The notes below the pieces were generated by a model. That model was not told where the DNA came from. It made no database searches and worked only from the letters and a program-made list of their open reading frames with translations. From positions 1 through 35,460 of IMG/VR virus record IMGVR_UViG_3300035034_002217: 35,460 nucleotides of DNA. One strand, 5' to 3'. Position 1 is the stretch's first letter. Every line of letters begins with the position of its first letter. This stretch comes from a virus. Below, in pieces: positions 3,515 to 27,977 of this stretch. A program made the translations under genes and the position numbers.

Positions 3515-3903
3515 GATGCAACCGTTCCGAGCTGATGCCGCAATTTTAATAGCCTAAAGGCTGGTCTCAAAATCTCCGCGTCTGTCTCCAGCATGTCGAG
3601 CTCTGCGATAATACTTTCATTCTCTGCATCATCGCCTAGGTGTAGAATTATGTCAGCGGCCAGACTCGCTTGGCCCCAGCTTATTATGACCTCGACTGCC
3701 GCGCGAATGTAGCCGCGTTTATATTCTTTGGCGGCTTCGCCTTTAATTGCTTGAAGTTCTGCCGCTGTGATTGTCACAATCCCGTCCAGTGCAAGTTGGT
3801 CCGTGAAGTAATCAATTGCAATTTCCGTTCGTTCTCGTGCGTCGCTGGTGAAGCAGACGCGTAGTAATTTTTGCTTTGTTGGGTTGACCAATTCACGTGT
3901 CAC
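3511..3903 (-). CDS. hypothetical 130-aa protein of the leftward operon
   Basis: Not recognised. The protein is predicted helical and fairly acidic, with a hydrophobic heptad-like segment around IIAELDMLETDAEILRPAFR near the C-terminus and no transmembrane helix. It overlaps the ParB-like gene stop by ATGA at its start and the 58-aa gene by ATGA at its end, so it should be co-translated with both. Proximity to a ParB-like protein and to the integrase gives no firm clue to its function. Confidence 0.6.
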   Translation of the reverse strand: MTRELVNPTKQKLLRVCFTSDARERTEIAIDYFTDQLALDGIVTITAAELQAIKGEAAKEYKRGYIRAAVEVIISWGQASLAADIILHLGDDAENESIIAELDMLETDAEILRPAFRLLKLRHQLGTVAS

Positions 3904-5865
3904 AGCTTTTCTCCTGCTAGTAGTTTGCGCTCGAGGGCGCGCGCGCCTTTTGTGTTGACGAATTGGGCCTCGATGGGGGTGTGTTCGGGTTTGATGGCGG
4001 CGGTGATGTCTGTCACGGCGTCGGCTTTTTTGTCGTCGAGCACGCTTTCATCGACGTGCAGGCGGTAGGTGTTGATGACCCCGCGCAATTGCGGTTTGGT
4101 GTAGCCGTTGAGCCAGTCCGCATCCATGACGTGGCCCGTGATTTGCGGCGTGTGACTGCGCGTAAACAGGGCGATGGCTTCGGGCAGTGCGCCGGGGGTG
4201 CCGTCGTAAGTGCTGTCGATGAGCTGGTCCGCAATCAGGGCGGTAAAGATTTTCGCGGCGGTCTCTGCGCTCGATAGCATGTGCGCGGTGAAGGCCGCGT
4301 GGTCGATGACATAACCTTCGGCGTCTAGTCCGTCAGCGCTGTGGCGCAAGGCGGTGTCGCGGGCGGCGTCTGCCGTGCCAATTTTGCCTGCTTCGCCGCT
4401 GACATGCTCACGTTTAATGTTGACGAGGCGCGGGCCGTAATCACGGGTCGGCATCAAGGCGGCAAGCGCCAGCGCCATCGCGTAATTGTGGCCGCCCGTG
4501 TTGGTGAGCGCCTCGCGCAGGTGAACCGTGCGCGCCGCTGCGCCGCGTTGCCATTGGCGGGTGCTAAGCGGTTTGGCGCTGGTCTCGTCTTCGCCCGCGT
4601 CGTCTCTGGTGTCGTCGCCGCCTTTAAGGTCTTGGGCCAGCAAGTCGGCTTGGTCCGCGCTGGCGTAGACGGGGTGGGTAATGGTCGCCACAAGTGAATA
4701 ATCGTTAAAGACAACGTGCGCGCGCTGTAAATCAATTGGCGTTTTGTCGGTCGCGGCGGGGTAGTCGTGGTGATTGTGGTACGGCGCAAACACAGGCGGT
4801 TTGGCGTAGCCGAGCGCGGTTGCGGTCGCTTCTGCCGCGTCGCGGGCCAGTGATTGCGCCAGCCCTGAATTGGTGAAATGGCGTTCGCCGTCTTCGTCGG
4901 CGTCGGTAATGTGGCCGCCGCGCGCAAGGTAATCCTCGACTGTGAAGGCCTGTTTGCCGACGGGGATGGCCTCGCCCGAAAGCCAGCGTTTCAGTCCGGC
5001 CCGATTGCGAATATCTGTCCACTCGCTTTGAATTTCCGTCAGCGCCGCGTCTTGCAGCTCGTGGGGCCAGCGGCCCAGTTCGTCGGCCCATTTCACGCTG
5101 CTGAACACGCCCGCGTAGAAGGCGTCGGCGACGGTGGGCGACAGGCGGCGCGAGGTTCACGCGGATCTGTGCCCAGCGTTCGGTGCGGCCTAGCGTTTCG
5201 CCAATTTCGCGGCACACGGCGCGAGCCTCTGCGGTGCCGTCACTGGCGGCAAGGCGGGCATCCTGTAGGTCGGCAATCGCGCGCGCCTCGTCCAGTGGGT
5301 GAACGTCTTGGCGCAAGCTGTTTTCCGTGACGGCCAGTTCCAGCATTTGAATGTCGGTCAGCTCGCGCACCTGCGCCATGACGGGGTGGTTCTTGGCGAT
5401 GTCACCGCGCTGGGCCAGCAGCATCAGCGCGCGCCAGCGGCGTTCGCCCGCGACGATTTCAAAGGCGGCGTCGATGTGGTCTGGCGCGGGGCGCACGACG
5501 ATGTTTTGCATCTGGCCTTTTTCCAGCAAGCTGGCGGCGAGGTCTTCCAGCTCGGCCTCATCAAATTGCTTGCGGTAATTAAGCGGGCTGCGCGCGATCT
5601 GGTCGAGCGGGATTGTGCCGTCATTTGAAGGGGTGGCCGGTATCGGGTCCGTGAAGGACGCTTGCCCGATACCGGCCAGCGTCAAGCCCTCGGGGGTCAG
5701 GGCGAGGCTGTCTTGTACGATGAGGTTTTGCGCGCGGTGGCTGTCCAACGTGCGGTTGAAGTTTGGTTGCTTAATGCCCGCCGTTCGCGACAGGTCGGCT
5801 TTGGTGGCGTCAGGCGCGCCGTGCAGTGCGCGCAGGAAGTCGGGGTTGAATTGTATGGTGCTCAT
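3900..5865 (-). pseudogene. ParB-like DNA-binding protein gene, split by a frameshift near 5146-5153
   Basis: The first part is a typical ParB/Spo0J N-domain: DQIARSPLNYRKQFDEAELE (~89-108), the CTPase-type box GERRWRA (~140-146), then ENSLRQDVHPLDEARA (~181-196), followed by a helix-turn-helix (~215-239). After QIRVNLA the frame changes. The continuation in a second frame, RLSPTVADAFYAGVFSSVKW and onward, runs to the stop at 3900 and completes a long C-terminal domain. The total length of 1966 nt is one base over a multiple of three, so a 1-nt insertion or 2-nt loss in the GC-rich run GGCGGCGCGAG is implied. The start at 5865 is preferred to the in-frame ATG at 5898 because GAAGGA lies 8 nt upstream. 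It could be a sequencing error, a real mutation or, less likely, recoding. ParB domains in phages serve partition or DNA binding. Confidence 0.75.
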
Positions 5866-6329
5866 TATGCGTGTCCTTCGCTGTGCGAAGGCGCGCAAGC
5901 GGGTTCCGCGCAGCGCGCATGAACCGGGCTCAGGGCTGTTGCCGCGCGCGCCTCTAGTCGTGGGAGGGGTGCACCAGCGGCTTGGTTCATGTTGGCGCAG
6001 CCAACGGAACCTGCTTCGGCGCGCGGCGGCGTCGCCGCGTCTAGCGCGTCCAAAATACGCTCACATGCCGTGTGGCGTTCAAATTCGGCGAGGGCGGCGC
6101 GTGTGAGGGTGTTGCTTTGCGCCTGTAGCTGGCGGTAGAGCGGCATGGCGTTTAGGCGCGCGTCGGCGCTGATGCCGTTTAGGGCGTGGCCCGCGTCGCG
6201 GACCATGCGGCGGCCTCGGCTGGCCTCACGCAGGCCAATGACAACATTCATCGGTAGCGCAGCGGTTGGCGTGGCGGCGTAACGCGGGCCGCGAACCGCG
6301 TTCGGATTGTCTGTTTTTGTGTGTGGCAT
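5865..6329 (-). CDS. hypothetical 154-aa first gene of the leftward operon; tail made of repeat elements
   Basis: Not recognised. The first ~100 residues (VIGLREASRGRRMVRDAGHA, then a helical QLQAQSNTLTRAALAEFERH segment) look like a genuine soluble domain. The last ~55 residues are translated from two copies of the two-hairpin repeat in opposite orientations (peptides EAGSVGCANMN and ALSPVHARCAEP). The stop and the ParB-like start share a base (TAATG). The start has a good SD, GGGAGG, 6 nt before the ATG, partly inside a 6-bp stem (CCCATC...GATGGG). It is first in the operon behind the operator region at 6330-6411. Confidence 0.6.
   Translation of the reverse strand: MPHTKTDNPNAVRGPRYAATPTAALPMNVVIGLREASRGRRMVRDAGHALNGISADARLNAMPLYRQLQAQSNTLTRAALAEFERHTACERILDALDAATPPRAEAGSVGCANMNQAAGAPLPRLEARAATALSPVHARCAEPACAPSHSEGHA
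5869..5939 (-). repeat. two-hairpin element, copy 1
   Basis: Read on the minus strand: conserved CAGCCCTGAGC, then the outer stem GGTTC/GAACC enclosing a GCGC/GCGC inner stem. The second hairpin follows, CCTTCG-cacag-CGAAGG (5886-5891 pairs with 5875-5880). The GAAGGA of the second hairpin is 8 nt before the ParB-like ATG. It is translated as the C-terminal tail of the 154-aa protein. Confidence 0.8.
5975..6050 (+). repeat. two-hairpin element, copy 2
   Basis: Outer stem GGTTC (5984-5988)/GAACC (6007-6011), inner stem GTTGGC/GCCAAC (5991-5996 with 6000-6005), the conserved TGCTTCG, then a second hairpin GCGCG-GCGGCG-t-CGCCGC-gtCTA-GCGCG. It is oriented against the gene that contains it and lacks the leading CAGCCCTGAGC. 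Confidence 0.75.
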
Positions 6330-6411
6330 CGTTGCCTCCCATCGGGTTGATGGGATGGGTTATGTCATCAATAATAACAATTGCAAGCAAAAAAGTTATG
6401 AACAATAACAA
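6330..6411 (-). promoter_or_regulatory. promoter/operator region of the leftward ParB-int operon
   Basis: AT-rich leader between the operon start at 6329 and a non-coding gap. It holds GTTATGAACAATAAC (6395-6409). Its reverse complement GTTATTGTTCATAAC matches 13 of 15 bases of the palindrome at 7370-7384 in the immunity region. A looser pair, GTTATGTCATCAATAATAAC, lies at 6359-6378. On the minus strand, TTGCAA, a 16-nt spacer and CATAAC make a plausible sigma70-type promoter between the operator-like sites. This suggests that the repressor or the Cro-like protein controls the integration operon. Confidence 0.55.
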
Positions 6412-6529
6412 TTCTTCGCGGCAGGTGTCGCGCTAACGGCCCTCACGATTGGCGTGATGCGCCGTGATTCTGGAGGGTTGTTGATGTTGGGATTTATGTT
6501 TTGCGCGCGGGGTTTAATTGCTCTGATTA
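6412..6529. other. intergenic stretch, nothing recognised
   Basis: This spacer lies between the upstream control region of the leftward operon and the end of the repressor operon. I see no supported gene, strong hairpin with a T-tract, or repeat copy in it. Confidence 0.4.
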
Positions 6530-6646
6530 TTATATTGGGCGCTGTACAATCTGTTCACTGAGATGCCATTGCCAAGCTGGTAGGCCAAAGAATAGTAGCA
6601 GGATGACCGCGAACGCGCCAAGCCCCCACCAGTCGCCCGCTTTCAT
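6530..6646 (-). CDS. 38-aa single-span membrane peptide
   Basis: A very short frame starting MKAGDWWGLG, with one hydrophobic segment (AFAVILLLFFGLPAW) followed by a short polar tail ending QRPI. It begins 3 nt after the stop of the 96-aa membrane protein gene, so it is the third gene of the repressor operon. Its strong single-helix character and tight spacing argue that it is translated. A role in superinfection exclusion or in partnering the upstream membrane protein would fit a gene expressed with the repressor, but that is inference. Confidence 0.55.
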   Translation of the reverse strand: MKAGDWWGLGAFAVILLLFFGLPAWQWHLSEQIVQRPI

Positions 6647-6649
6647 CGC

Positions 6650-6940
6650 CTAGCTTTTGCGAATGGCGTTGATGATCCCGCCGCCGATGATGAACAGGGG
6701 TCCGACGATTAGGCCGATCTTAGCGAAATAGTGCGCCCAGAACAGGACGACCGTATCCATGTCCATGCCCGCCATAACGGTTGATAATGTTCCGCTTTCA
6801 AACACTGCCAGCGCCTCTGGAAAATTGGCGGCGATAAAGAAGTAAATCGAAAAACTCATGATTAACAGCACCGCACCGATGGCGGGAAAGCCAGATGGTT
6901 GTGCGGATTTTGATTGTTTGGATTTGCTTGCTTCGGTCAT
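6650..6940 (-). CDS. 96-aa two-span membrane protein in the repressor operon
   Basis: It has a polar Lys/Ser-rich N-terminus (~residues 1-16). Two hydrophobic segments follow (~18-38, IGAVLLIMSFSIYFFIAANF; ~69-90, containing IGLIVGPLFIIGGGIINAI), separated by an acidic loop. No family is recognised. It starts 3 nt after the repressor stop and is followed within 3 nt by a 38-aa membrane peptide, so all three should be expressed in the lysogen. That context is typical of superinfection-exclusion or lysogenic-conversion membrane proteins. A holin function is less likely because the gene is not beside lysis or late genes. Confidence 0.6.
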   Translation of the reverse strand: MTEASKSKQSKSAQPSGFPAIGAVLLIMSFSIYFFIAANFPEALAVFESGTLSTVMAGMDMDTVVLFWAHYFAKIGLIVGPLFIIGGGIINAIRKS

Positions 6941-6943
6941 GCC

Positions 6944-7300
6944 TCAGCCTTTACTTGTCGCGTCTTCATGCTCGTACTCTGTCTTGTCCCGTTCGGCCAG
7001 ACCGCGCGCCATGTCGACAACCAGTTTGCGCTGGCGCGAGGGTACGTCGGCAAAGTAATCTAGCAGTTCGGCGCTCTCTGCTTTGCTGCCATCTGGATGC
7101 TCGAAAAGGGCGGGGACGGAGGGCGCGCCAACGCCAATGCGGAGCGCCTCCATGAACGCCAGCGTAATATTGTAGGGACGCGTTTCTGCCGCCGCGATAG
7201 ATGATCGCGCGTAGCCAATGCGAAGCGCCAGCGCTTCTTGCGAGAGCCCAGCGGCTTTGCGCCACTCTTTGAAGTACAATTTTGCAGGCTCGTTTGACAT
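6944..7300 (-). CDS. XRE-family phage repressor (CI-like)
   Basis: 118-aa transcription regulator. A helix-turn-helix of the Cro/CI type occupies ~residues 10-40 (EWRKAAGLSQEALALRIGYA, then RSSIAAAETRPYNITLAFMEAL). The C-terminal part (LLDYFADVPSRQRKLVVDMA) is short and has no LexA-type protease domain, so induction by RecA-stimulated self-cleavage is unlikely. I chose the ATG at 7300; an in-frame ATG at 7405 would run through the operator region and the divergent promoter. SD is weak (GCCAAG), and a short-leader transcript is possible. It is divergent from the Cro-like gene and leads an operon with two membrane proteins. Confidence 0.85.
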   Translation of the reverse strand: MSNEPAKLYFKEWRKAAGLSQEALALRIGYARSSIAAAETRPYNITLAFMEALRIGVGAPSVPALFEHPDGSKAESAELLDYFADVPSRQRKLVVDMARGLAERDKTEYEHEDATSKG

Positions 7301-7394
7301 ACTTGGCAGTATCGCACGGGCCGTGTTTGGCGTCTGTTGGTGTCGATAACATTGTGCTTGACGGTAACAGTTATTGTCAATAACAGTCTCAATC
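7301..7394. promoter_or_regulatory. immunity region: divergent promoters with operator repeats
   Basis: A perfect 15-bp palindrome GTTATTGTCAATAAC lies at 7370-7384. Related half sites TGTCGATAAC (7341-7350) and TGACGGTAAC (7359-7368) repeat TGTCAATAAC (7375-7384), about 16-18 bp apart. Rightward, TTGACG (7358-7363), a 16-nt spacer and ATAACA (7380-7385) place the transcript start almost at the Cro-like ATG. Leftward, TTGACA (7380-7375), an 18-nt spacer and CACAAT (7356-7351) serve the repressor operon. Both promoters are embedded in the repeats, so one set of bound regulators can choose between them, as in lambda OR. Confidence 0.7.
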
Positions 7395-7769
7395 ATGAGA
7401 TTCACGGATTGGTTTGAGGCTTCGGGCCTGACAGAGGAAGTGGCGGCGCAGCAATGCGGCGTCTCGCGCAGCTACATTGCCCGCTTGAAGCGCGGGGCGG
7501 TGCCGTCTGATACGGTCAAGGTGCAAATTGAACAGGGGACGGGCGGCAAAGTCGCGTGGGCCGACTGGAAGCCTGTCGTGAAATCGGCCGACTTGAAAGC
7601 AAAAAGTGTGTGTGGTCATGCCGCACAATCTGACGCAGCAGGGGCGGCAACGCCAGCCCAATCGGATGCAGAGAGTGGGGTCAGCCCTGAGCTTGGTCCA
7701 TCGCGCGATAGCGCGGGTGACCTGCTTCGACCCGCTGCGCGTCGCGCTCAGGGCGGGTCAAAACCATGA
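7395..7769 (+). CDS. Cro-like helix-turn-helix regulator
   Basis: 124-aa protein whose first ~60 residues form a compact Cro/YdaS-like HTH: FTDWFEASGLTEEVAAQQCG, then VSRSYIARLKRGAVPSDTVKVQIEQGTGG. The rest is low-complexity and ends in a repeat-derived tail (SPELGPSRDSAG). The ATG at 7395 sits 10 nt beyond the predicted -10 box, so its message may be leaderless; upstream in-frame starts lie inside the operator. It diverges from the repressor gene, the standard place for Cro. The stop overlaps the next start (ATGA). Confidence 0.75.
   Translation: MRFTDWFEASGLTEEVAAQQCGVSRSYIARLKRGAVPSDTVKVQIEQGTGGKVAWADWKPVVKSADLKAKSVCGHAAQSDAAGAATPAQSDAESGVSPELGPSRDSAGDLLRPAARRAQGGSKP
7682..7759 (+). repeat. 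two-hairpin element, copy 3
   Basis: CAGCCCTGAGC, a weakened outer stem (GGTC/GACC), inner CGCGC/GCGCG, then TGCTTCG and a second hairpin whose outer arms are ACCCGC (7730-7735) and GCGGGT (7753-7758). The purine-rich GGGCGGG of the last arm lies 8 nt before the CII-like ATG at 7766. It is translated as the tail of the Cro-like protein. Confidence 0.75.
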
Positions 7770-8206
7770 CCTCGCCAAAAGCGCCGCTGTCTCTAGAGTC
7801 TGCTATTACGCGCGCGGCAAAACCCCTTGGCGGGGTGACGAATGCGTCATTGGCATTGGGGCGGGATCGTTACACCGTCGCGCACGCAGCCAATCCGAAT
7901 AAGCCTGACATGTTACGCTTGGATGATGCCATCGCGCTCGACCAGCTCTGTTTTGATGCCAGCGGGCAGACGCCAATCCTTGCCTATTACCAAGCCGCGC
8001 TGGCGCCAGAGGATGGCCCGCGCGCGTCCGTGCTGGCGCATTTGGGTGCGGTCACGCGGCAATCGGGGGATCTGGTTGGGACGCTCGCCGATGCGCTGGC
8101 CGATAATGATTTGACAGACGGTGAGCGCGCCGAGGCGTTGGGCGCGGTTGAGGCGCTGCGCGCGCAACTTAGCGGTTTGGTTGAAACTTTGACGGGAGCG
8201 GCGTGA
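7766..8206 (+). CDS. CII-like phage regulatory protein (candidate)
   Basis: 146-aa protein placed immediately after the Cro-like gene, the position of cII in lambdoid phages. The N-terminal half (LESAITRAAKPLGGVTNASL, then MLRLDDAIALDQLCFDASGQ) resembles the phage regulatory CII (CP76) type, with a helical C-terminal half (SGDLVGTLADALADNDLTDG). This similarity is from memory of the family pattern and is moderate. The ATG overlaps the stop of the Cro-like gene, and its SD is in the 3' arm of repeat copy 3. The next gene starts within its stop (TGATG). Confidence 0.5.
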   Translation: MTSPKAPLSLESAITRAAKPLGGVTNASLALGRDRYTVAHAANPNKPDMLRLDDAIALDQLCFDASGQTPILAYYQAALAPEDGPRASVLAHLGAVTRQSGDLVGTLADALADNDLTDGERAEALGAVEALRAQLSGLVETLTGAA

Positions 8207-8577
8207 TGACGGGATTGCGGTTTTATGATTTGGGCGCGGATGTGCGGATGCTGCGCGTTGGCGCGGGGTGGATGGTTTGGCGCTGGATAAATGACGGCGC
8301 GGCGATTCAAGTGCTGGCGGACGGGGATGGTCACAAGGGCTTGCTGTGGATCGCGCGCGAGCGGGATTACTGCAATGATTGCGCGTGGCCGCACCAATGC
8401 GCGCGCGAGGAAAGCTGTGAGCGTCGCGCGCGGGGTGAGGTGCGGGGGAGATATTTTAACCGCGCTAAGAGGCTGTCGCCTCACGCGGTCGAAGCAGGTT
8501 CCGTTGGCTGCGCCAACATGAACCATGCTCAGGGCTGTGTTCCCGCTGCGGCGGAGGCTGTGTCATGCGTGTTGTAG
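8206..8577 (+). CDS. hypothetical protein with a four-cysteine cluster
   Basis: 123 aa. The first ~50 residues contain hydrophobic beta-like strands (AGWMVWRWINDGAAIQVLAD). A cysteine cluster C56-x2-C59-x5-C65-x5-C71 follows, with a nearby His, which could bind zinc. The tail after ~85 is repeat-derived (EAGSVGCANMNHAQG). The ATG at 8206 overlaps the previous stop as TGATG; the GTG at 8203 is less likely. No family is recognised. Position among early genes suggests a small regulatory or accessory protein. Confidence 0.55.
   Translation: MTGLRFYDLGADVRMLRVGAGWMVWRWINDGAAIQVLADGDGHKGLLWIARERDYCNDCAWPHQCAREESCERRARGEVRGRYFNRAKRLSPHAVEAGSVGCANMNHAQGCVPAAAEAVSCVL
8459..8538 (-). repeat. two-hairpin element, copy 4 (reverse orientation)
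   Basis: On the plus strand the second hairpin comes first: CCGCG-CTAA-GAGGC-tgtc-GCCTC-A-CGCGG. GAAGCAGGTTCC, the GTTGGC/GCCAAC inner stem, ATGAACC and AGGGCTGT follow. The inner stem is the same as in copy 2, while the second hairpin differs and instead resembles those at 14.6 and 27.7 kb. It is translated in frame. Confidence 0.8.
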
Positions 8578-8876
8578 AATATTTAGGCCACGATGCGCTT
8601 GCGGCGCGCGGCTTTTGTGACTTGCAGGGCGTTTTGTTTGATCGCGCGCTTTACTTGGTCGCGGGCGAGCAAATGGCGCGGAGTGTGAGTCTCTCTTGCA
8701 CGGCTCTGGTCTTCCAAGGCCCTGTCGCTACTGGGGCTTTAGTGGCGTCGCCGCATCCCGATGCGTGCGGGGGGTGCGGCGACGCTTACCCGTTCGATGT
8801 CTCGCCTGATGCTGTCACTCAACTCCGCCCACGCGGTCCAACCTTGCGTCTGGTTAGAGCGGAGGGCGTGTCATGA
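8565..8876 (+). CDS. hypothetical 103-aa protein
   Basis: Not recognised. It has a Cys/Gly-rich centre (ACGGCGDAYPFDVSPDAV) that might bind a metal, and otherwise a mixed composition. It overlaps the previous gene by 13 nt. The start context GCGGAGGCTGTGTCATG carries a strong SD and is nearly repeated at the next gene start (GCGGAGGGCGTGTCATG). Its stop overlaps the next ATG. The short length and the overlaps on both sides are typical of early phage genes. Confidence 0.5.
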   Translation: MRVVEYLGHDALAARGFCDLQGVLFDRALYLVAGEQMARSVSLSCTALVFQGPVATGALVASPHPDACGGCGDAYPFDVSPDAVTQLRPRGPTLRLVRAEGVS

Positions 8877-9256
8877 GTTGGCGTCACATCAAAAACAAAA
8901 TCATCACGGCGCTGGGCGGGCAAGTTGTGCCGCGCCAAGGGCTGCACATTCAGGCGCACTGCGAGACCTCGCGTCACGCTCGCATTTTCTTGGATGGTGA
9001 AGATGTGACCGCCTCGAGGCGGGGGACCGAAATTGAGGTTCAGAACATCAAGGCGGGCCAGCCTTTTGTAATTACACTGGTTTGTAAGGCCTCGGTTAAT
9101 TTGGGCAGTCCTTATTTAATCGAGGGCGTTGGTAGCGGGCCCACCTCTGCTGGCGCGCGCAAAGCAACAGCCCTGAGCCCGGTTCATGCGCAAGGCGAAG
9201 CCGCCAGCGCGGAACCCGCTTCGCGCGCACCTGCACAGCAGGTGACGCGCAAATGA
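8873..9256 (+). CDS. hypothetical 127-aa protein with repeat-derived tail
   Basis: The first ~90 residues look like a small beta-rich fold (CETSRHARIFLDGEDVTASR, then IKAGQPFVITLVCKASVNLG). Its strand pattern resembles an immunoglobulin-like or phage surface domain, but I cannot assign a family. Residues from ~97 (ALSPVHAQGEAASAEPASRA) are translated from repeat copy 5. The SD GGAGG is 7 nt before the ATG. Its stop overlaps the methyltransferase start, whose SD lies in the repeat. Confidence 0.5.
   Translation: MSWRHIKNKIITALGGQVVPRQGLHIQAHCETSRHARIFLDGEDVTASRRGTEIEVQNIKAGQPFVITLVCKASVNLGSPYLIEGVGSGPTSAGARKATALSPVHAQGEAASAEPASRAPAQQVTRK
9167..9250 (+). repeat. two-hairpin element, copy 5
   Basis: ACAGCCCTGAGCCC, outer GGTTC/GAACC, and an interrupted inner stem CGC-aa-GGC-gaa-GCC-gcca-GCG. 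CCGCTTCG follows, then the second hairpin CACCTGC (9228-9234)-aca-GCAGGTG (9238-9244). AGGTGA in the last arm is 7 nt before the methyltransferase ATG at 9253. It is in frame with the upstream gene. Confidence 0.8.
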
Positions 9257-9951
9257 TCCACCTCAAAGCCAATGCTTACGGCCATGCCGATCCGCAGCTT
9301 TATGAAACGCCTGAACTGGCGACGCTGGCGCTGATTGATGTTGACCCTTGGCTGCGCACCGAGGGTCAGCCGCGTCTGATACTAGAGCCTGCGTGTGGTC
9401 CGGGGGCCATTGCGGGCGTGATGGGATATGCGGGTCACAAAGTGCGCGCCAGTGACCTGCATTATTACGGTGAGCGCTGGAAAGGTAAGGCGTGGACGCC
9501 GCGCGATCCCGCCTGGATGATGCCCGAATGGCATAAGGATTTCTTTGATTGGACGCCGAACGCGGTTCGGTTGTGGGTCGGTGACAGTGCGCGCTACCAA
9601 GGCTGTACCGCGCTGGTCACCAATCCGCCCTACGGGGCAGACGAGCACCGCGCCAGCCGCGCCGAGGCGTTTGCGCTGCACGCGCTAGAACTGGTCCCGC
9701 GCGTTTACATGCTGCTCGAGGCGACATTTTTTCAGGCGGGTGGGACGCGCCGCGCGGAACTGTTTGATCGTGGGCATTTGACGGGGTTCTTTCCGTTTGC
9801 CGACCGGCTCGACATGCACCGCGATGGCTTTCCTGAAGAAGACAAGCAGACCCAATCGCGCCGTCACGCGTGGTTCCGCTGGCAACGCGGCGCAGGCTGC
9901 ACACGCCCAGAGGTGAGGCGGCTCTGCGCCGCGACGGGGAGGGGGTTGTGA
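9253..9951 (+). CDS. N6-adenine DNA methyltransferase-like protein
   Basis: 232-aa class I SAM-dependent methyltransferase. Motif I is LILEPACGPGAIAG (~43-55), an acidic residue for the SAM ribose is in VRASDLHYYG (~64-73), and the catalytic motif IV is TNPPYG (~123-128), which points to N6-adenine or N4-cytosine modification. A target-recognition domain is not obvious, and no restriction endonuclease gene is adjacent, so it looks like an orphan phage methyltransferase that could modify phage DNA or alter regulation. The start overlaps the upstream stop. The last ~25 residues are Arg-rich. Confidence 0.8.
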   Translation: MIHLKANAYGHADPQLYETPELATLALIDVDPWLRTEGQPRLILEPACGPGAIAGVMGYAGHKVRASDLHYYGERWKGKAWTPRDPAWMMPEWHKDFFDWTPNAVRLWVGDSARYQGCTALVTNPPYGADEHRASRAEAFALHALELVPRVYMLLEATFFQAGGTRRAELFDRGHLTGFFPFADRLDMHRDGFPEEDKQTQSRRHAWFRWQRGAGCTRPEVRRLCAATGRGL

Positions 9952-10238
9952 TGGAGATTGTAGAGGCTGCTGCTGTCGCCGCTCAGTGGCTGTGTGCTGT
10001 TTTGTTTATGGTCGGGATGGCGAGCGCGCATCGCGATGGTGACTTTAAGGGTGTGCAGTATTGTGCATCCTTCGCTGTGATAATACTTTTATTTTTACTG
10101 CTGGGGCGGCTCGGAGGTATCGAGGAGGCGCTCAACAGTAGCCCTGAGCCCGGTTCATGCACGGCGCAAAGCGCCGATGCGGAACCTGCTTCATCTCCCG
10201 TTCCCCGCAGCGGCTTAGCGGGAGGTCAAAACCCGTGA
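9951..10238 (+). CDS. small membrane protein with repeat-derived tail
   Basis: 95 aa starting MEIVEAAAVAAQWL. Two hydrophobic segments (~6-24, VAAQWLCAVLFMVGMA; ~38-56, FAVIILLFLLLG) flank a short charged loop containing HRDGDFKG. The tail from ~63 (SPEPGSCTAQSADAEPASS) is encoded by repeat copy 6. I chose 9951 because it overlaps the methyltransferase stop as TGATG; the in-frame start at 9870 would lie deep in the methyltransferase gene. Function unknown. Confidence 0.6.
   Translation: MEIVEAAAVAAQWLCAVLFMVGMASAHRDGDFKGVQYCASFAVIILLFLLLGRLGGIEEALNSSPEPGSCTAQSADAEPASSPVPRSGLAGGQNP
10137..10224 (+). repeat. two-hairpin element, copy 6
   Basis: TAGCCCTGAGCCC, outer GGTTC/GAACC, inner GGCGC-aaa-GCGCC, and TGCTTCA. 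The second hairpin has outer arms CTCCCG (10195-10200) and CGGGAG (10219-10224), inner CCGC/GCGG and a CTTAG bulge. GGGAGG in the final arm is 9 nt before the GTG start at 10235. Confidence 0.8.
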
Positions 10239-10927
10239 CAAAACAATTTAACCATCAAGGCACGGGCAGCCCAAATGATGCGCGCTGGCATCGCCACGGC
10301 GATATTCGCCGCAAGTGGGCGGTGACGCGGCGCACGCCGATTTGTCAGCTCGTGGCATCTGGGAAAACGTGGGGCTTTACCTGTTCGTTCCCGCCGCCCG
10401 GCGCGATGATTGGGCAGCGGATTGGGCTGCACTGTGGCACGTCCGCCGTCAAGCAAGATGATATTTCAGACGCGGCGCGCGGTGCGATTGCGAAACTGAC
10501 GGGGCATCCGCTCGAGGACTGGAACCTCGGCCTGCGCGAGTTGAAAGCCGAGGCGGGCCAGATGGTCGGCTCGGCGGTTCTGGTCGCGGCATTTCGCACG
10601 GACGGCCTGAACATTACAGACACAGTTCGGATTTTCCGCTTCGACAGCGAGGGCCATAAATATTTGCCCAGCCCGCAAGGCCCAATTGCGCGCGTCGGTT
10701 ACGGCCAGACAGAGGTTCAGTGGAGTGATTATCACGGCAAGTTGATCCGCCCTGTCGGGGACTGGACCTCTGGCCGCTGGGTCTGGGCGTTTGCCGCCCC
10801 TGTCGCGACCGTGGCGGGCGCGCGCGGGGCGGTCCTGCCCGGCGTCGGCGCTGGCCTGTGGGATGTCGGCAAACAGATCGCGATTGTGAAGAAAAAGATG
10901 AAGCAAACTGAGGGAGTAGTGTCATGA
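10235..10927 (+). CDS. ASCH-like domain protein (candidate)
   Basis: 230-aa protein with a GTG start at 10235 that overlaps the previous stop; a longer in-frame ATG at 10157 lies inside the membrane-protein gene and the repeat. The region WAVTRRTPICQLVASGKTWG, then FPPPGAMIGQRIGLHCG, then AVLVAAFR and later RPVGDWTSGRWVWAF matches the general ASCH pattern: hydrophobic P..I..G.K, then IGQRI.iH, then a strand and a W-G-R-W ending. The ASCH fold is related to PUA and binds RNA or modified nucleosides. The match is by eye and could be wrong. It lies between a methyltransferase operon segment and replication genes. Confidence 0.4.
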   Translation: MTKQFNHQGTGSPNDARWHRHGDIRRKWAVTRRTPICQLVASGKTWGFTCSFPPPGAMIGQRIGLHCGTSAVKQDDISDAARGAIAKLTGHPLEDWNLGLRELKAEAGQMVGSAVLVAAFRTDGLNITDTVRIFRFDSEGHKYLPSPQGPIARVGYGQTEVQWSDYHGKLIRPVGDWTSGRWVWAFAAPVATVAGARGAVLPGVGAGLWDVGKQIAIVKKKMKQTEGVVS

Positions 10928-12564
10928 GTCAGTTTTGGGACGGGCCAGCGTTCGCGCGGATGGAGGCGCGGATTTCACGGCTAGAGGCGCTACTCGCGCG
11001 CAATGCGCCTGCTGATCGCGCGGCGACTGACGCGGCTGAAACCGCACGGGATGACGACGAGGATGCAGCCTTGAGCCGTCCGATGTTGCAATCGGTCCAC
11101 AGGACCGATTGCCGGACCACATCGAACCATGCGCAGGCGAAGCCTGTCGCGGAACCCGCTTCGACGGGCGGCAGCGAAGCTGCGTCTAGCCCGTCCCAAG
11201 ATAACTCCCCTAATCCATTCCTGCTGCCCATTGGCGCCCACTTGAAGTCTGACGGGCGTGAGCGCGCCGTTTGGGATTTGCTGAAGTTTGGCCAGCACGT
11301 CCCGTTGGATGATATTCGTGCGAGCGGTGACGATGGCACGCTATCTCAAACGAATGCGCAATTGATTATTTCAAATCTACGCAAAAAAGTTGTGCGGGCG
11401 TACCAGATCACAAGCCGACATGGCGGGTATGAGGTGACGCCGCTGGCGGGCGTTAAGCCGCACGCCAAAAGCGTGTTTGATGTGCCTGAAAAGCTGTTGC
11501 TGACCCTAAGCCCGCGCCAGTCCCACTTGTGGGCTATTTTTAGCGATGGCGCGCCGCATTCACTGGATGAATTGGCGAATGTGCGGGCGGGTCAGCCGCT
11601 GGCATATCAAGATGTGCGCGACCACTTGACCACGTTGCGGCGCATGTTTGCGGCTATTTCATTAGACTTTGTGAATGTTGGCGCGGGTCTTTATCAGGTC
11701 GTCATAAAGGAAGAAGAGGATACGAAAAGCGCCGCTGCGCCTGTTGTCGATGCTGTGCCTGTGACGGCCTCGCCACCTGCGCGTGTGATTGTTTTGTCGC
11801 AAGCTGTTGCCGATCGTTTAGCGCCGCGTGAGCAGCAGTTTTGGAGCGTCCTGAAATATGGGCGCGGGCATGACCTTGACGCACTGCGCGATGCCCCGCC
11901 TGATCGGTATCTGACGAAGGGTAATGCGAAGACGATACTTAAGGGCTTGCGGGCAAAACTGCGTGACGATGACATCGAGATTACGCTTACGAATCGCAAA
12001 TATTTTGCGGTTGAGGGCCGCGTTTTTTCTGACACGCCAGACGCTGGATCTGACGCAGCAACGGACGCGCGTGATATGCCACGCGCTGATGGGCCACTGC
12101 AGGGCGCCAGGCCGAGCGCGGGTGCAACTGGTCGTAAATCAGCGCGGCCAGTGCCAGCGGCGCCGCGCGCGCCCTTTTTGGATGCGATGGACTGCAGTGC
12201 TGAGCCGTCCGATGTTGCGATGAACTCACTGGATCAATCGCCGGACATTATCGAGCCATCGTCAAGCGAAACACGCACGGCTGACCCGCTTCACAACGCG
12301 GCCAGCGCGCAAGACAAATCGCTTTGTTTTGAGATGGACCGAAAGCGCCATTATCGCCTGCCCAATCGGTTGCAAAAATTGTTTAAAATGCTGTCTGCGG
12401 GACAGCCCGTTTCGTCTGAGGCGATTAGCAAGCTGACCTCGCCTGCGGGCGGCAAGCTGGCTGTCGTGATGTGGGTCAATAATTTGCGCAACGCCATCGC
12501 GGCAGACGGCCTGATCATCACCACCATTGGCGATACGTTCACGATGGAGGCGTCCGATGACTAA
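10924..12564 (+). CDS. 546-aa protein with four winged-helix-like units
   Basis: A short coiled-coil-like N-terminus (FARMEARISRLEALLARNAP) is followed by four related units at ~112-173, ~192-262, ~297-365 and ~478-543. Each has the pattern hydrophobic W-x-L-L/F-x-x-G-x-x-hydrophobic, an L-x-x-(L/V)-R helix (NLRKKV, TLRRMF, GLRAKL, NLRNAI) and a final beta-wing (GGYEVT, GLYQVV, KYFAVEG, DTFTMEA). This resembles the OmpR-type winged helix used for DNA binding. The linkers are low-complexity and, at ~50-92 and ~420-452, derive from the repeat element. The ATG overlaps the upstream stop. Four DNA-binding units in an early gene next to a sliding clamp suggest replication or origin binding, but that is inference. 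Confidence 0.6.
   Translation: MSQFWDGPAFARMEARISRLEALLARNAPADRAATDAAETARDDDEDAALSRPMLQSVHRTDCRTTSNHAQAKPVAEPASTGGSEAASSPSQDNSPNPFLLPIGAHLKSDGRERAVWDLLKFGQHVPLDDIRASGDDGTLSQTNAQLIISNLRKKVVRAYQITSRHGGYEVTPLAGVKPHAKSVFDVPEKLLLTLSPRQSHLWAIFSDGAPHSLDELANVRAGQPLAYQDVRDHLTTLRRMFAAISLDFVNVGAGLYQVVIKEEEDTKSAAAPVVDAVPVTASPPARVIVLSQAVADRLAPREQQFWSVLKYGRGHDLDALRDAPPDRYLTKGNAKTILKGLRAKLRDDDIEITLTNRKYFAVEGRVFSDTPDAGSDAATDARDMPRADGPLQGARPSAGATGRKSARPVPAAPRAPFLDAMDCSAEPSDVAMNSLDQSPDIIEPSSSETRTADPLHNAASAQDKSLCFEMDRKRHYRLPNRLQKLFKMLSAGQPVSSEAISKLTSPAGGKLAVVMWVNNLRNAIAADGLIITTIGDTFTMEASDD
11066..11196 (+). repeat. two-hairpin element, copy 7 (expanded) inside the multi-winged-helix gene
   Basis: A CAGCCTTGAGC variant is followed by an extra cruciform: CGATGT (11081-11086)/ACATCG (11119-11124) surrounding the 10-bp perfect CAATCGGTCC-aca-GGACCGATTG (11089-11111). 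Then come GCGCAGGC-gaa-GCCTGTCGC, GGAACCCGCTTCG and the second hairpin ACGGGC-GGCAGC-gaa-GCTGC-gtCTA-GCCCGT. It is in frame as the linker before the first winged-helix unit. Confidence 0.75.
12193..12292 (+). repeat. degenerate two-hairpin element, copy 8
   Basis: GCAGTGCTGAGCCGTCCGAT closely matches the start of copy 7. The GTCCG/CGGAC pairing remains, but the other stems are decayed and only GACCCGCTTCA of the 3' flank is left. It encodes the linker before the fourth winged-helix unit of the same gene, so it probably arose with copy 7 by duplication. Confidence 0.5.
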
Positions 12565-12910
12565 TCTATTCGGCCATTCTACCAGCGCGGCGAAGGCAAG
12601 TGCGTTGGATCTGCGTAAGGCGGATGTGAAGGCGAAGTTGAGTTTTGGGGAGGTGGCCACGGCGCTGCGCCTGAAAGGGTCTAGCCGTGCCGGATGGGAT
12701 TGCCCGTGCGGCGCGCCGTGCGGCCTGAAGGAAGAGCGCGGCCATCGGGGCGCACGGTGCAGCGCCTGCGCCAACGGCGTCGACGTGATTGGCTTGTGGA
12801 TGGGCGCGCAGCGGGTCGGCTTCGTCGCCGCCGTGCGCGGTCTAGAGGATTTAATTGAAGCCCGCGACCGCAAAGCCGCAACGGGTGATGATTTGTTTGG
12901 AGAGAGATGA
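12557..12910 (+). CDS. stand-alone primase-type zinc-finger protein
   Basis: 117 aa starting MTNLFGHSTS and overlapping the previous gene by 8 nt. The centre GWDCPCGAPCGLKEERGHRG, then ARCSACANGVDVIGLWM, gives Cys49, Cys51, Cys55, His63, Cys68 and Cys71. It resembles the CHC2 zinc-binding domain at the N-terminus of DnaG-type primases, including the hydrophobic helix after the last Cys pair. There is no TOPRIM or catalytic domain here or in an adjacent gene. It may recruit or modify a host primase, or bind DNA at the phage origin. Its stop overlaps the dnaN start. Confidence 0.55.
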   Translation: MTNLFGHSTSAAKASALDLRKADVKAKLSFGEVATALRLKGSSRAGWDCPCGAPCGLKEERGHRGARCSACANGVDVIGLWMGAQRVGFVAAVRGLEDLIEARDRKAATGDDLFGER

Positions 12911-14040
12911 TGAGATTTGAGATTGATGCCAGTATCTTGCGCGATGCGGTGGTGGCGGTTGAGGGCGCGGCGGAGCGTAAATCGACGCTACCCATTTTGA
13001 CGATGATGCTGCTACGGCTAGAGGGCAATGCCCTCACGGTGACGGCGACGGATTTGGATGTTGAGGCGGCGCAGACGCTTGCTGTGTCAGGCGTTGAGGA
13101 TGGCGCGGTGTGCGCGCCCGCGTCCGAGCTGGCTAAAGTGCTGCGCCGGATGCGCGGTTTGGCGACGGTGTGGATTGAAGAGGGGCGGTTGCTGATCAAG
13201 GCGGGGCGGTCGCAGGTAAAGCTGCCGACGCTGCCTGCAACTGATTTTGCTTTGATGGCGCGCGGCAAGGGCGACAATGACGCCGTGCTGACCTTTGGGG
13301 CCGAGGCCCTGCACGCGGCGCTGTCCACAGTGGCGCACGCGGTGTCGCGCGAAGAGACGCGGTATTATTTGAACGGCGTCTACATTGAGCCAGGCGAAGA
13401 CGTGACCCTGTTCACCGCAACGGATGGACACCGATTGGGGCACGTTCAAATGGCGGGCGGTGCCGACACGAAAGGCATTATTTACCCGCGCAAAACGCTG
13501 GTCCATTTGATGGCGATGTGCGTGCGCGCCAAGGATGGCGATGTAACGCTAACCTTTGTTGATGCGTCGGCGGGCGGATTTGCCAATATCGTGCGCGCCA
13601 ATGCGGGGGCGGAAACGCTTAGCTCCAAAGTGATTGATGGTAATTATCCCGATTATGGCCGCGTTATTCCCAAAGAAGATGGCGCGAATATTAGCGGCTT
13701 TGACCCTGAAAAGCTGAAAATTGCGGTTGAAACCGTGATGTCGGGTTCGGGTGAGCGCACCAGTAGCGTGAAGTTTGAGCGCGGGGCGTCTGGCCTGCGG
13801 TTGAGCCTGAACGAGACCGATTTTAGTGCCGAAGCAGAGATTGACGCCGAGGTCTCGGAGGGGCTGCAGCCGTTTGGGATTAACGGAAAATACGTGCTCG
13901 ATGCGCTTGCGGCGGTGGGCGACGGCGCGCTGCGCTGGACCGTGGCCGATTCGATGTCGCCCACGCGCCTAGGCGTCGTGAGCGGCGACGGCGTCGAGGA
14001 TACAACACAGCGCATCGTGATGATGCCCCTGCGCGTTTGA
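12907..14040 (+). CDS. dnaN: phage-encoded DNA polymerase III beta subunit (sliding clamp)
   Basis: 377 aa, the normal length of the bacterial clamp. Family landmarks run the whole length: RKSTLPILTMMLLRLEGNAL (~24-43), the VTATDLDVEA strand, SREETRYYLNGVYI (~146-159), the ATDGHRLG motif that is nearly invariant in beta clamps, VIDGNYPDYGRVIP, and the C-terminal RIVMMPLRV, which corresponds to the usual MPMRL ending. All three domains are complete, so it should form a dimeric ring that tethers a polymerase. The start is ATGATG; the first ATG overlaps the zinc-finger gene stop. Phage-encoded bacterial-type clamps are uncommon and imply a phage-modified host replisome. Confidence 0.9.
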   Translation: MMRFEIDASILRDAVVAVEGAAERKSTLPILTMMLLRLEGNALTVTATDLDVEAAQTLAVSGVEDGAVCAPASELAKVLRRMRGLATVWIEEGRLLIKAGRSQVKLPTLPATDFALMARGKGDNDAVLTFGAEALHAALSTVAHAVSREETRYYLNGVYIEPGEDVTLFTATDGHRLGHVQMAGGADTKGIIYPRKTLVHLMAMCVRAKDGDVTLTFVDASAGGFANIVRANAGAETLSSKVIDGNYPDYGRVIPKEDGANISGFDPEKLKIAVETVMSGSGERTSSVKFERGASGLRLSLNETDFSAEAEIDAEVSEGLQPFGINGKYVLDALAAVGDGALRWTVADSMSPTRLGVVSGDGVEDTTQRIVMMPLRV

Positions 14041-14051
14041 GGAGAGAGTAG

Positions 14052-14321
14052 ATGGCAAAGCAGTATGAAAAGCTGAAAGCTTTGGTTGAGACCAACGCGC
14101 ACATGAATGGACAGGAGAAAAGCGACTTGAAGGCGTGGCTGTTCGATAGGCAGGCGCATGAATGCCCCGCCTACATTCAGATTGATAACACGGACACAGC
14201 GGATCTGGCGATGAACCTAATTGAGGCGCTGAAATACGAAGACCAAGGCGTGATTGACCGCCTTTGCACCGCAATTGCTGGCCGTCATGCTTCCGATGTT
14301 TTGATGATTGTGGGGTCATAG
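14052..14321 (+). CDS. hypothetical 89-aa protein
   Basis: Not recognised. It starts MAKQYEKLKALVETNAHMNG with a GAGGAGAGAG Shine-Dalgarno-like run, 12 nt after the clamp stop, so it is in the same operon. It is mostly helical and charged, with a central DNTDTADLAMNLIEALKYED segment; no membrane segment or Cys pair is seen. It may be a small partner of the clamp or of the replication proteins by location only. Confidence 0.6.
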   Translation: MAKQYEKLKALVETNAHMNGQEKSDLKAWLFDRQAHECPAYIQIDNTDTADLAMNLIEALKYEDQGVIDRLCTAIAGRHASDVLMIVGS

Positions 14322-14323
14322 TC

Positions 14324-14545
14324 ATGGTCGTAACGGTAACAGATAACGGCAACACAATCACAATTTCGGGTGGCGGGATTGAGCCGATTACGATGACGGA
14401 CACGCAGCTCGCGGAGGTCACCAGTCGCCTCGCGCGTCAACGTCGCGGCGAAGGTAAAACAGCCCGGAGCCCGGTTCATGCGCGCAGCGCGGAACCTGCT
14501 TCGCCCTCTCCCGCGATAACGGATCAGGGAGGGCAGGAAACATGA
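14324..14545 (+). CDS. hypothetical 73-aa protein with repeat-derived tail
   Basis: Starts MVVTVTDNGNTITISGGGIE, 2 nt after the previous stop, an opening that looks like a short beta-hairpin domain. The last ~28 residues (SPVHARSAEPASPSPAITDQ) come from repeat copy 9. An in-frame upstream ATG at 14264 would lie within the previous gene and is not preferred. Function unknown. Confidence 0.55.
   Translation: MVVTVTDNGNTITISGGGIEPITMTDTQLAEVTSRLARQRRGEGKTARSPVHARSAEPASPSPAITDQGGQET
14460..14533 (+). repeat. two-hairpin element, copy 9
   Basis: CAGCCCGGAGCCC, outer GGTTC/GAACC, inner GCGC-gca-GCGC, TGCTTCG, then a second hairpin with arms CCCTC (14504-14508)/GAGGG (14529-14533). AGGGAGGG lies 8 nt before an ATG at 14542 that overlaps the upstream stop, although that ATG now opens only an 11-codon frame. 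Confidence 0.75.
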
Positions 14546-14756
14546 CCCATCCGCACCGTATCCTGATCCCGCCATAGATCCCGCGCCCTAGGACGAAGGC
14601 GCGCGGCGAAGGGTGGACAGCCCTGAGCATGGTTCATGCGCGTAGCGCGGAGCCCGCTGCGTGGCGCGTGAGGCGTAAGCCTCTTAGCGCGGCACAAAAC
14701 TAAGCCTCTATTTTCAAATGATTTTTACCGCGTCAAAAGACGCACACGGGGAAGCT
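14542..14756 (+). other. remnant gene region between two repeat copies
   Basis: An ATG with a good SD (14542) overlaps the upstream stop but reads only MTHPHRILIPP before TAG. The stretch then passes a GC-rich inverted repeat and ends in repeat copy 10. In other intervals a repeat-borne start opens a full gene, so this looks like a decayed or deleted cassette. No other coding potential is convincing. Confidence 0.4.
14617..14695 (+). repeat. two-hairpin element, copy 10
   Basis: ACAGCCCTGAGCAT, outer GGTTC/GAGCC (one mismatch), inner GCGC-gta-GCGC, then a second hairpin GCGCG-T-GAGGC-gtaa-GCCTC-TTAG-CGCGG. This second hairpin is the reverse-orientation equivalent of those in copies 4 and 14. 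It is not followed directly by a start codon. Confidence 0.75.
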
Positions 14757-15116
14757 ATGACTAAAAAATCGAACGGGGTTCGGGTTATGATTAGCGAAAG
14801 CAATCAAAGAACAATAATTCTGGCTGCTGTCATAATCGGCAATATTGCGTTTATTGTTGGCGCGCTTTGGTTGCTGGCGATCTATCCGTTTTACGGCTCA
14901 CTGGTCATTTGCGGGTATGTTCTGGGCAAAGTGGATAACTGGATGCGCCACTGGAACCGCAGAACCGATGAGCTCAACCTAGAACTAGATGCGCTGAATG
15001 CACGGATGGCGGCGCGGTTGGCGCGCAGCAACAGCCCTGAGCATGGTCCAGCGTCAAGCGAAGCGCAGACGGGCGGCCCGCTTGGCGCGCCTTCGCACAG
15101 CGAAGGACCCGCATAA
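14757..15116 (+). CDS. membrane protein with repeat-derived tail
   Basis: 119 aa from the ATG at 14757 (MTKKSNGVRV, SD GGGGAAGC); in-frame alternatives exist at 14718 and 14787. Two adjoining hydrophobic segments (IILAAVIIGNIAFIVGALWL and YPFYGSLVICGYVLG) are followed by an amphipathic, coiled-coil-like segment (DELNLELDALNARMAARLAR). The tail (NSPEHGPASSEAQTGGPLGA) is repeat copy 11. No family is recognised. It lies directly before the replication-initiator-like gene and shares a base with its start (TAATG). Confidence 0.6.
   Translation: MTKKSNGVRVMISESNQRTIILAAVIIGNIAFIVGALWLLAIYPFYGSLVICGYVLGKVDNWMRHWNRRTDELNLELDALNARMAARLARSNSPEHGPASSEAQTGGPLGAPSHSEGPA
15030..15112 (+). repeat. two-hairpin element, copy 11
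   Basis: ACAGCCCTGAGCAT, a decayed first hairpin (GGTCC...GGCCC; inner GCGTC...GACG), then the second hairpin GCGCGCCTTCG-cacag-CGAAGGACCCGC. Its last 28 bases match copy 1 on the other strand except for one base. GAAGGA is 8 nt before the ATG at 15116. Confidence 0.75.
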
Positions 15117-16084
15117 TGCTAAGCGCGGTTTTGAGCATCAAGGGTAGTTGGTTGCTGAAAGGCGCGCCGCTGGCCGTGGTTGAGGCGTTGGCGGTTTATA
15201 CCGATCAGGCGACCCTGTGCAGTGTTGTCAGCCTTGATGGCCTCGCCGCGACGGCCCGCGTTGATGTGCGGACCGTGTCGCGGGTTCTGGATGATTTGGG
15301 CGGGCCAGCGCATGACCAGCTCGTGCTACGCCTGAAAGCGCCCAAGGGCGGCGCGGGGGCGGTTTCGGCGTTTCGGGTGCATTGGGAGCGAATCGCCGCC
15401 GTTGCGTCCGCCTGTGGCCGCGCACGGCGCGCCGTGATGGGTGGGGCGCGGCGTGTGGCGAGCAAGCGCAAGCTGATCGGTGCCAGTGCCTCGGCTGTTG
15501 TCTGTGGTGACATGCTGGCGGCGGTGCGCGCGGCATGTTTGGCGGAGGGGCATCACGGGGCCGCGCGTAAGATTTCAGACGCGCAAAACAAGCTGGATCA
15601 AGCGTTCGAAAATTGGCCCGCAAAAGTGTCCATTTCGGGCTTGATTGAGACGGTTGATTTGACGGTTGAAGCCTGTGGAATTGTCGAGATCAACTCGGAC
15701 ATTCTGTCACTCAACTCGGACATTCTGTCACTCAACTCGGACATTCTGTCCACCGCGCATAGTATAGATAATACCCCTCTAGGAAACCAACCCTTACGCG
15801 TACACACGCGCGAGGGACGAAATTTGATTGCGTCTTTGGCGGCGGTTGCCGAGCCATCGGGGCAGCGGCGGGGCAAGCTGCTCGAGCTGCTCTTGGGCTC
15901 GCAAATTGTGACGCTTGACGGGTGGCTGATCGTGAGGGTGGCGGATGACGAGCGCCGCACCCTGATCGAACAGCAATCGGGGGTCGGCCTGTTCAGTTCA
16001 GCGATGGAAATGGGATATTTGGGCCTGATGCTCACAACGCGGCGTGATGCGCCCAAAACGGAAAAAACGGAGATTTCACGATGA
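15116..16084 (+). CDS. replication-initiator-like protein with internal iterons
   Basis: 322 aa. The N-terminal ~75 residues form a winged-helix pattern (LSIKGSWLLKGAPLAVVEAL, then DGLAATARVDVRTVSRVLDD), as in phage and plasmid helix-turn-helix replication proteins. The middle is basic (GRARRAVMGGARRVASKRKL). Residues ~192-212 are three copies of NSDILSL, encoded by three exact DNA repeats, followed by an AT-richer stretch and a second compact domain. An initiator gene that contains its own iterons mirrors lambda gene O. The SD lies in the hairpin of copy 11. Without a family match the initiator label is an inference from the HTH, the repeats and the position beside replication genes. Confidence 0.5.
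   Translation: MLSAVLSIKGSWLLKGAPLAVVEALAVYTDQATLCSVVSLDGLAATARVDVRTVSRVLDDLGGPAHDQLVLRLKAPKGGAGAVSAFRVHWERIAAVASACGRARRAVMGGARRVASKRKLIGASASAVVCGDMLAAVRAACLAEGHHGAARKISDAQNKLDQAFENWPAKVSISGLIETVDLTVEACGIVEINSDILSLNSDILSLNSDILSTAHSIDNTPLGNQPLRVHTREGRNLIASLAAVAEPSGQRRGKLLELLLGSQIVTLDGWLIVRVADDERRTLIEQQSGVGLFSSAMEMGYLGLMLTTRRDAPKTEKTEISR
15691..15750 (+). repeat. three 21-bp direct repeats, candidate origin iterons
   Basis: The unit CAACTCGGACATTCTGTC plus the spacer ACT is repeated exactly at 15691, 15712 and 15733 (the last lacks the spacer). Each unit contains the interrupted palindrome GACA-TTC-TGTC. An AT-richer stretch (AGTATAGATAATAC, 15761-15774) follows. The repeats lie inside a putative initiator gene, as lambda iterons lie inside gene O. 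Confidence 0.6.
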
Positions 16085-27676: not shown

Positions 27677-27683
27677 GATTTTT

Positions 27684-27764
27684 TATCCCGCGCTAAGAGG
27701 CTTGCGCCTCACGCGGGATGAAGCGGGTTCCACGTCGGTTTCACCGACGCATGAACTAAGCTGC
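27684..27764 (-). repeat. two-hairpin element, copy 14 (reverse orientation)
   Basis: ATCCCGCG-CTAA-GAGGC-ttgc-GCCTC-A-CGCGGGAT with 8-bp outer arms, then GAAGCGGGTTC, inner CGTCGG-tttca-CCGACG, CATGAAC. It lies in the gap after the tail-terminator-like gene. Its second hairpin is like copies 4 and 10; its inner stem is unique. Confidence 0.8.
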
Positions 27765-27789
27765 AGGCGCTTTTATCGCGCTGGTCGCG

Positions 27790-27842
27790 CTGTTTAGCGG
27801 GTTCCGTCGGCGGTGCCGATATGAACCAAGCTGAAGGCTCGG
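27790..27842 (-). repeat. partial two-hairpin element, copy 15
   Basis: GCGGGTTCC, inner GTCGGC-ggt-GCCGAT, ATGAACC and AAGCTGAAGGC. Only the first hairpin and its flank are clear; a TTTAG before it may be the remnant of the second hairpin. The orientation is that of copy 14. Confidence 0.6.
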
Positions 27843-27868: not shown

Positions 27869-27950
27869 CAACAGCCCTGAGCTCGGTTCATGTTGGCGAA
27901 GCCAACGGAACCTGCTTCGACCCCGTGCGGCGTAGCCGCTTAGCGGGGGC
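27869..27950 (+). repeat. two-hairpin element, copy 16
   Basis: ACAGCCCTGAGCTC, outer GGTTC/GAACC, inner GTTGGC-gaa-GCCAAC, TGCTTCG, then the second hairpin ACCCCG-t-GCGGC-gta-GCCGC-TTAG-CGGGG. It is a complete and well-paired copy and a good reference for the family. Confidence 0.85.
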
Positions 27951-27977
27951 AACAATTTAACTTCAGGAGTAATCTTC

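Follow-up and report, generated by a model that had tools for sequence, protein, structure and literature searches.

The window is a virus record of 35,460 bases. A covariance model trained on 23 copies of a palindromic repeat, of which six are window copies, detects 15 copies in it at E<1e-4; a divergent relative of these lies mid-gene at 12193 (Table 1). Copies are found in either orientation, and some stand in tandem or inverted to each other, a pattern also seen in chromosomes.

Six of these copies (1, 3, 5, 6, 9 and 11) lie at gene junctions. At each one the upstream reading frame continues through the repeat, which forms an in-frame tail, and the 3′ arm of the second hairpin contains an SD-like string: GAAGGA in copies 1 and 11, GGGCGGG in copy 3, AGGTGA in copy 5, GGGAGG in copy 6 and AGGGAGGG in copy 9. 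All six motifs were found where the initial annotation had placed them, and its statement that a start codon follows at 7–9 nt and overlaps the upstream stop is true, as read from the sequence, for all six. The overlap is TAATG at 5865 and 15116, where the 36-nt ends are near-identical, and ATGA or GTGA at the other four junctions. The start codon of the gene at 10235 (g10235) is GTG; an in-frame ATG at 10157, within copy 6, is a possible alternative start, but the starts of relatives align near 10235. All six starts had been taken as those of a next gene. However, start 14542 opens an ORF of 11 codons only, after which another repeat copy (copy 10) is found, leaving a credible downstream gene at five junctions.

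The repeat had also been presented as a cassette linked to starts. This describes the six junction copies but not the other window copies, which are antisense, mid-gene or intergenic, so that about 6 of 15 fit the description of a coupling cassette. Copy 7 carries extra nested palindromes, beginning at 11064. The SD of gene 27978 (AGGAG) lies outside copy 16, with an opening energy of 2.7 kcal/mol. The number of copies that end no more than 12 nt from a start on their own strand has a p value of about 5e-8 under random placement, a naive null, since selection acts against insertions into genes.

Table 1. Repeat copies of the window and, for the six junction copies, the hairpin holding the SD, the next start, the predicted SD-opening energy (kcal/mol) and z against shuffled upstream sequence. 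CM, covariance model.
Copy	Coordinates	Strand	Location	CM match	SD hairpin	Next start	SD opening	z
1	5862..5937	-	in-frame C-terminal tail of gene 5865-6329	R1, 48.3 bits	5875-5891	5865 (-), ParB-like gene	9.3	2.6
2	5976..6057	+	antisense within gene 5865-6329, back to back with copy 1	53.9 bits				
3	7683..7766	+	tail of Cro-like gene 7374-7769	57.4 bits	7729-7759	7766, cII-like (Phage_CP76 match)	17.3	1.7
4	8450..8536	-	antisense, C-terminal end of gene 8203-8577	77.5 bits				
5	9169..9257	+	tail of gene 8873-9256	61.7 bits	9229-9243	9253, methyltransferase-like (MTase)	14.5	4.6
6	10140..10233	+	tail of gene 9948-10238	87 bits	10195-10224	10235	12.4	1.8
7	11114..11202	+	mid-gene, in frame, gene 10924-12564; direct repeat D4	29.7 bits				
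8 (divergent)	12193..12270	+	mid-gene in 10924-12564; 73% identical to 11064-11141	none				
9	14461..14542	+	tail of gene ending 14545	52.3 bits	14503-14534	14542		0.5
10	14619..14702	+	intergenic, tandem partner of copy 9, away from starts	80.1 bits				
11	15033..15119	+	tail of gene 14718-15116	33.9 bits	15090-15106	15116	5.6	1.3
12	16300..16389	+	within gene 16081-17160	79.2 bits				
13	22572..22656	-	antisense within gene 22415-23449	71.6 bits				
14	27678..27769	-	intergenic	67.5 bits				
15	27771..27839	-	intergenic, partial	29.1 bits				
16	27873..27958	+	intergenic, upstream of gene 27978	79.9 bits				

In the window the ParB-like gene (3900-5867, minus strand) consists of two ORFs that overlap, 3900-5108 and 4732-5865, while L065, L087 and L004 each have a homolog in one undivided ORF; the split is either a frameshift or an assembly error. 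Gene 15116-16084 contains three tandem 21-nt repeats (TCAACTCGGACATTCTGTCAC) at 15690-15752.

A repeat family of Hyphomonadaceae chromosomes

Scanning 84,980 species genomes with a sequence pattern returned 56 stretches, nearly all from Hyphomonadaceae and chiefly from Henriciella OFTM158, and the covariance model matched in 23 of 105 Hyphomonadaceae genomes. With a wider pattern, four stretches were obtained from viral contigs, L082–L084 lacking support from the covariance model. The genomic copies come from MAGs, with at least 40 in Henriciella OFTM158 and at least 36 in Henriciella MO_005.B12, no more than 40 candidates being scored in any one genome. The plan common to 87 copies (including a few from phage contigs) comprises CAGCCCTGAGCnnGGTTCATG, a variable stem, GGAACCyGCTTCG and a second hairpin that has TTAG towards the 3′ side; in the consensus fold, 11 of the 23 pairs are changed on both sides. 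The window shares this core, from CAGCCCTGAGCnnGGTTCATG through the first hairpin and GGAACCyGCTTCG to the second hairpin. A phage-specific repeat is ruled out by the copies in Hyphomonadaceae chromosomes: the repeat is a dispersed chromosomal palindrome, and a phage coupling cassette is not its origin. A known RNA family was rejected as well, the window having no Rfam match at gathering thresholds and ten host loci giving tRNAs only. No name for the family was met in the literature searched.

Most positive genomes carry one or two copies and two Henriciella MAGs (G001, MO_005.B12, and G002, OFTM158) dozens, a lineage-specific expansion without evident transposase. Single copies in two genomes (L012 and L040) are located at the same place beside a tRNA gene. 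The Y1 (RAYT) transposase domain PF01797 was absent from G001 and weak in G002, where no repeat element was found in the 15 kb surrounding the PF01797 genes. Mobilisation by a RAYT is unsupported, none being linked to the repeat.

Chromosomal copies look mainly intergenic. Among 82 of them, 13 overlap an ORF on the same strand and 9 in antisense, and clear in-frame use was not evident. Of 72 genomic copies, 37 have an SD-like 4-mer (AGGA, GGAG or GAGG) in the 3′ arm of their second hairpin, about 90% paired, and in most of these CAAAACC comes next; copies 3 and 6 of the window correspond to this genomic consensus with a start codon added. Among about 80 genomic copies fetched, no more than one is followed by an ORF start at SD spacing, and this copy belongs to a prophage. 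Hairpins are kept equally in antisense and intergenic copies, and pairing alone is thus no proof of a role in translation. The frequency of such 4-mers where no ORF follows and the stems of antisense copies favour a neutral or selfish repeat, which would spread on its own and be tolerated at phage gene 3′ ends with no regulatory role; the SD would then owe its place in a stem simply to a purine-rich 3′ arm and to the close packing of phage genes, by which copies abut the next start. The SD left open in three junction copies of relatives (see below) points the same way.

Alternatively, the repeats could be mainly transcript features, that is REP-like 3′-end stabilisers or terminators, as several single genomic copies just upstream of terminator-like hairpins and the intergenic cluster 27678-27958 of the window might suggest. 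We consider this very unlikely, most early copies being inside the coding sequence of continuous operons and in both orientations.

Among known systems, REP/BIME/REPIN elements with their RAYT transposases are short, extragenic palindromes, dispersed and often paired in inverted orientation (PMC3116915), and the family is like them in its dispersal, its tandem and inverted pairs and its high copy number in some species; pairs and arrays of this type were seen in the chromosomes. The unit here is nevertheless longer (two hairpins, about 85–95 nt), is partly within phage genes and has no linked RAYT. Rickettsia palindromic elements (RPE) are palindromes of about 100–150 nt lying in frame in genes, with peptide tails (PMC10969869). 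The likeness is one of layout: palindromic repeats of a bacterial lineage giving in-frame peptide tails, with a conserved peptide (SPEPGSC/ALSPVHA...EPAS tails) in the window and in two Henriciella prophages. In contrast to RPE, the in-frame copies are here in phage genes, at gene ends and holding the SD of the next gene, and the chromosomal copies look mainly intergenic.

The initial annotation had drawn an analogy with the start-associated sequences (SAS) of cluster K mycobacteriophages, a 13-bp GGGATAGGAGCCC at starts in the non-structural half, of which an extended form (ESAS) has inverted repeats (PMC3203893). The analogy stands for repeats adjoining translation starts, with inverted repeats in the extended form. 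However, the 13-bp GGGATAGGAGCCC is absent from the six junction sequences, which rules out identity with SAS, and no in-frame tail or chromosomal family is described for the ESAS inverted repeats, which lie upstream of the 13 bp. By comparison, the structured, coding repeats of the window resemble RPE more than SAS.

Predicted SD masking in the window and its relatives

The proposal that folding would hide the SD agrees with in silico fold energies. For the six junctions the predicted mean SD-opening energy is 11.9 kcal/mol (unpaired 0.11), compared to 3.8 kcal/mol (0.49) for 35 other starts (Mann-Whitney p=5e-5), a comparison in which the copy 1 start was taken 2 nt off 5865, the position used for the per-junction values of Table 1. 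Compared to shuffles, masking is strong for copies 5 and 1, moderate for copies 6 and 3, weak for copy 11 and absent for copy 9; given their low z, copies 9 and 11 are weak singly. A sequestered downstream RBS at an overlapping or close stop and start is the arrangement of structure-mediated coupling, and it is the one predicted for these junctions.

Copies 1, 5 and 11 share a short SD hairpin with a fourth junction, in the Henriciella MO_005.B12 prophage (G001:C23:25057-25090), the class thus occurring in two phages. Its alignment is gap-free and 7 of 7 pairs are kept in all four hairpins, four being changed on both sides; the covariation score was reached by 1 of 500 shuffles. The hairpins precede unrelated genes and keep the SD in the 3′ arm. 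Beyond this prophage, no member was found in 105 family and 398 order genomes, nor in viral contigs. The recurrence of compensated stems before unrelated genes gives some support to the portability of this short class, and it is here that the initial idea of a portable translational-coupling cassette holds best. As a general description of the repeat it fails on the chromosomal family, where at most one copy fits, on the minority of window copies that do, on overlaps existing without the repeat and on three OFTM158-prophage copies that leave the SD open. Stems changed on both sides before unrelated genes with the SD retained in the 3′ arm, the opening cost far above that of other starts and an element-free relative (L087) that masks the same cII SD with its own hairpin nevertheless argue against a neutral repeat, which we regard as possible but unlikely.

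No near relatives of window positions 1-24000 were found by megablast among deposited phages or plasmids. Homologs of window genes are present in the Henriciella MO_005.B12 prophage (G001:C23), in the OFTM158 prophage (G002:C46) and in others, and this relatedness suggests a Henriciella-type host for the phage. The element was absent from forty loci of MTase relatives, and the clamp, as a single-protein query, had no relatives in viral contigs. The clamp junction carries an element tail and an ATGA overlap in the OFTM158 prophage, an ATGA overlap without the element in the window, and no element in L078. Likewise, the cII junction of OFTM158 has a GTGA overlap and the MTase start of L081 an ATGA overlap, both without the element. 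The viral contig L087 is collinear with the window and element-free throughout; its MTase directly overlaps g10235, and both the MTase and g10235 starts overlap the upstream stop. These overlaps in element-free relatives indicate that the overlap architecture pre-exists and that the element is an addition.

At the element junctions of the OFTM158 prophage (clamp, 3533 and L085:18067) the SD is outside any stable hairpin, with opening energies of 1.9 kcal/mol for the clamp and 2.6 kcal/mol for 3533, and the same is true of the L004 copy upstream of a ParB-like gene. In L087, where starts are in general more structured than in the window, an unrelated hairpin masks the SD of cII (z=4.1) and likewise that of the MTase (z=3.0). 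The OFTM158 cII ortholog is mildly structured (z=1.1). The same core genes are available with the element, with an unrelated hairpin and with neither, natural replicates by which the role of an SD-masking structure is directly testable. The strong L087 hairpin (GCCACCCC...GGGGTGGC) is located at about 7220-7310, just upstream of cII.

Possible coupling and exaptation of the repeat

In phage f1, a hairpin is found just upstream of the -4 overlap of VII-IX (PMC12548453), and termination-reinitiation at ATGA overlaps is a known coupling route (PMC6728339). The window junctions have the same general layout, a hairpin that precedes or covers the RBS where stop and start overlap, and that upstream translation would open. 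They differ from f1 in that the hairpin derives from a repeat family and that coupling is what we infer from the sequestered SD and the in-frame tails. On these grounds translational coupling at the junctions is plausible, and translation of the next gene probably depends on the upstream neighbour. The compensated stems of the short class and the hairpins of L087 also favour coupling; the stems kept in antisense copies, the open SD of the OFTM158-prophage junctions, the weakness of copies 9 and 11, the mild structure of the OFTM158 cII ortholog and the generally more structured starts of L087 speak against it. A stop/start overlap can by itself couple through reinitiation, with no need of a hairpin.

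It seems to us somewhat probable that a palindromic repeat of chromosomal type was inserted in frame at phage gene 3′ ends and exapted there as an SD hairpin. The element is a two-hairpin palindrome of roughly 85–95 nt, of the type found in Hyphomonadaceae chromosomes, and the phage has it in either orientation. Where genes are tightly packed, it would have entered the 3′ end of the upstream gene in frame, by insertion or copying; this insertion history, and with it the direction of transfer, is what we infer from family membership and from overlaps that pre-exist the element. The consensus 3′ arm of the distal hairpin, often purine-rich (GAGG or GGGAG, then CAAAACC), would have come to lie an SD spacing before the next start, the distal hairpin so becoming the SD hairpin of the next gene. 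When folded, this hairpin would mask the SD until opened by a ribosome on its way through the in-frame tail, and at the overlapping stop and start the same ribosome or a new 30S could initiate the next gene. The route may thus be RNA unfolding, termination-reinitiation or both, and any regulatory value of such coupling is likewise putative.

The repeats might instead be boundary linkers, marking, and perhaps promoting through recombination among copies, the acquisition of small accessory genes, each providing an adaptor (tail, SD and start) for the displaced conserved gene. None of the fetched relatives has a homolog of the tailed upstream genes 5865-6329, 8873-9256, 9948-10238 and 14718-15116, and the downstream genes (ParB-like, MTase, g10235 and 15116) are conserved in relatives, so that the repeat may mark insertion boundaries. 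The direct MTase-g10235 overlap in L087 and the near-identical ends at 5865 and 15116 are also in line with this. However, the numbers are small: 4 of 5 accessory-to-core junctions carry a copy, compared to 2 of 10 others, with Fisher p=0.047 under a post hoc grouping, and the association of copies with accessory genes is suggestive only. Moreover, copy 3 and the OFTM158 clamp copy sit between conserved genes and no recombinant was seen. We consider the linker explanation rather unlikely.

A bolder extension of the exaptation reading, which we hold as doubtful, is that phages turned the chromosomal palindrome into a portable junction adaptor, a unit of roughly 90 nt comprising an upstream tail, an SD hidden in its last hairpin and its own spacer and start. 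If this were true, accessory genes could enter upstream of conserved genes and yet stay translationally coupled. Confirmed coupling would make the repeat a natural case of a mobile repeat turned translational adaptor. The subject spans fields that are mostly treated separately: selfish palindromic repeats, the extension of proteins in frame and the control of translation at operon level.

The element is also found in other positions relative to genes. In the OFTM158 prophage (L079, 9093-9197 and 4117-4193) it forms in-frame N-terminal regions of genes, including that of the g10235 homolog, window copy 6 being on the other side of the start. In the viral contig L003 (1096-1166), the element's own TGA (CCCTGAG) closes one ORF and its own ATG (GGTTCATG, after AGG) starts the next.
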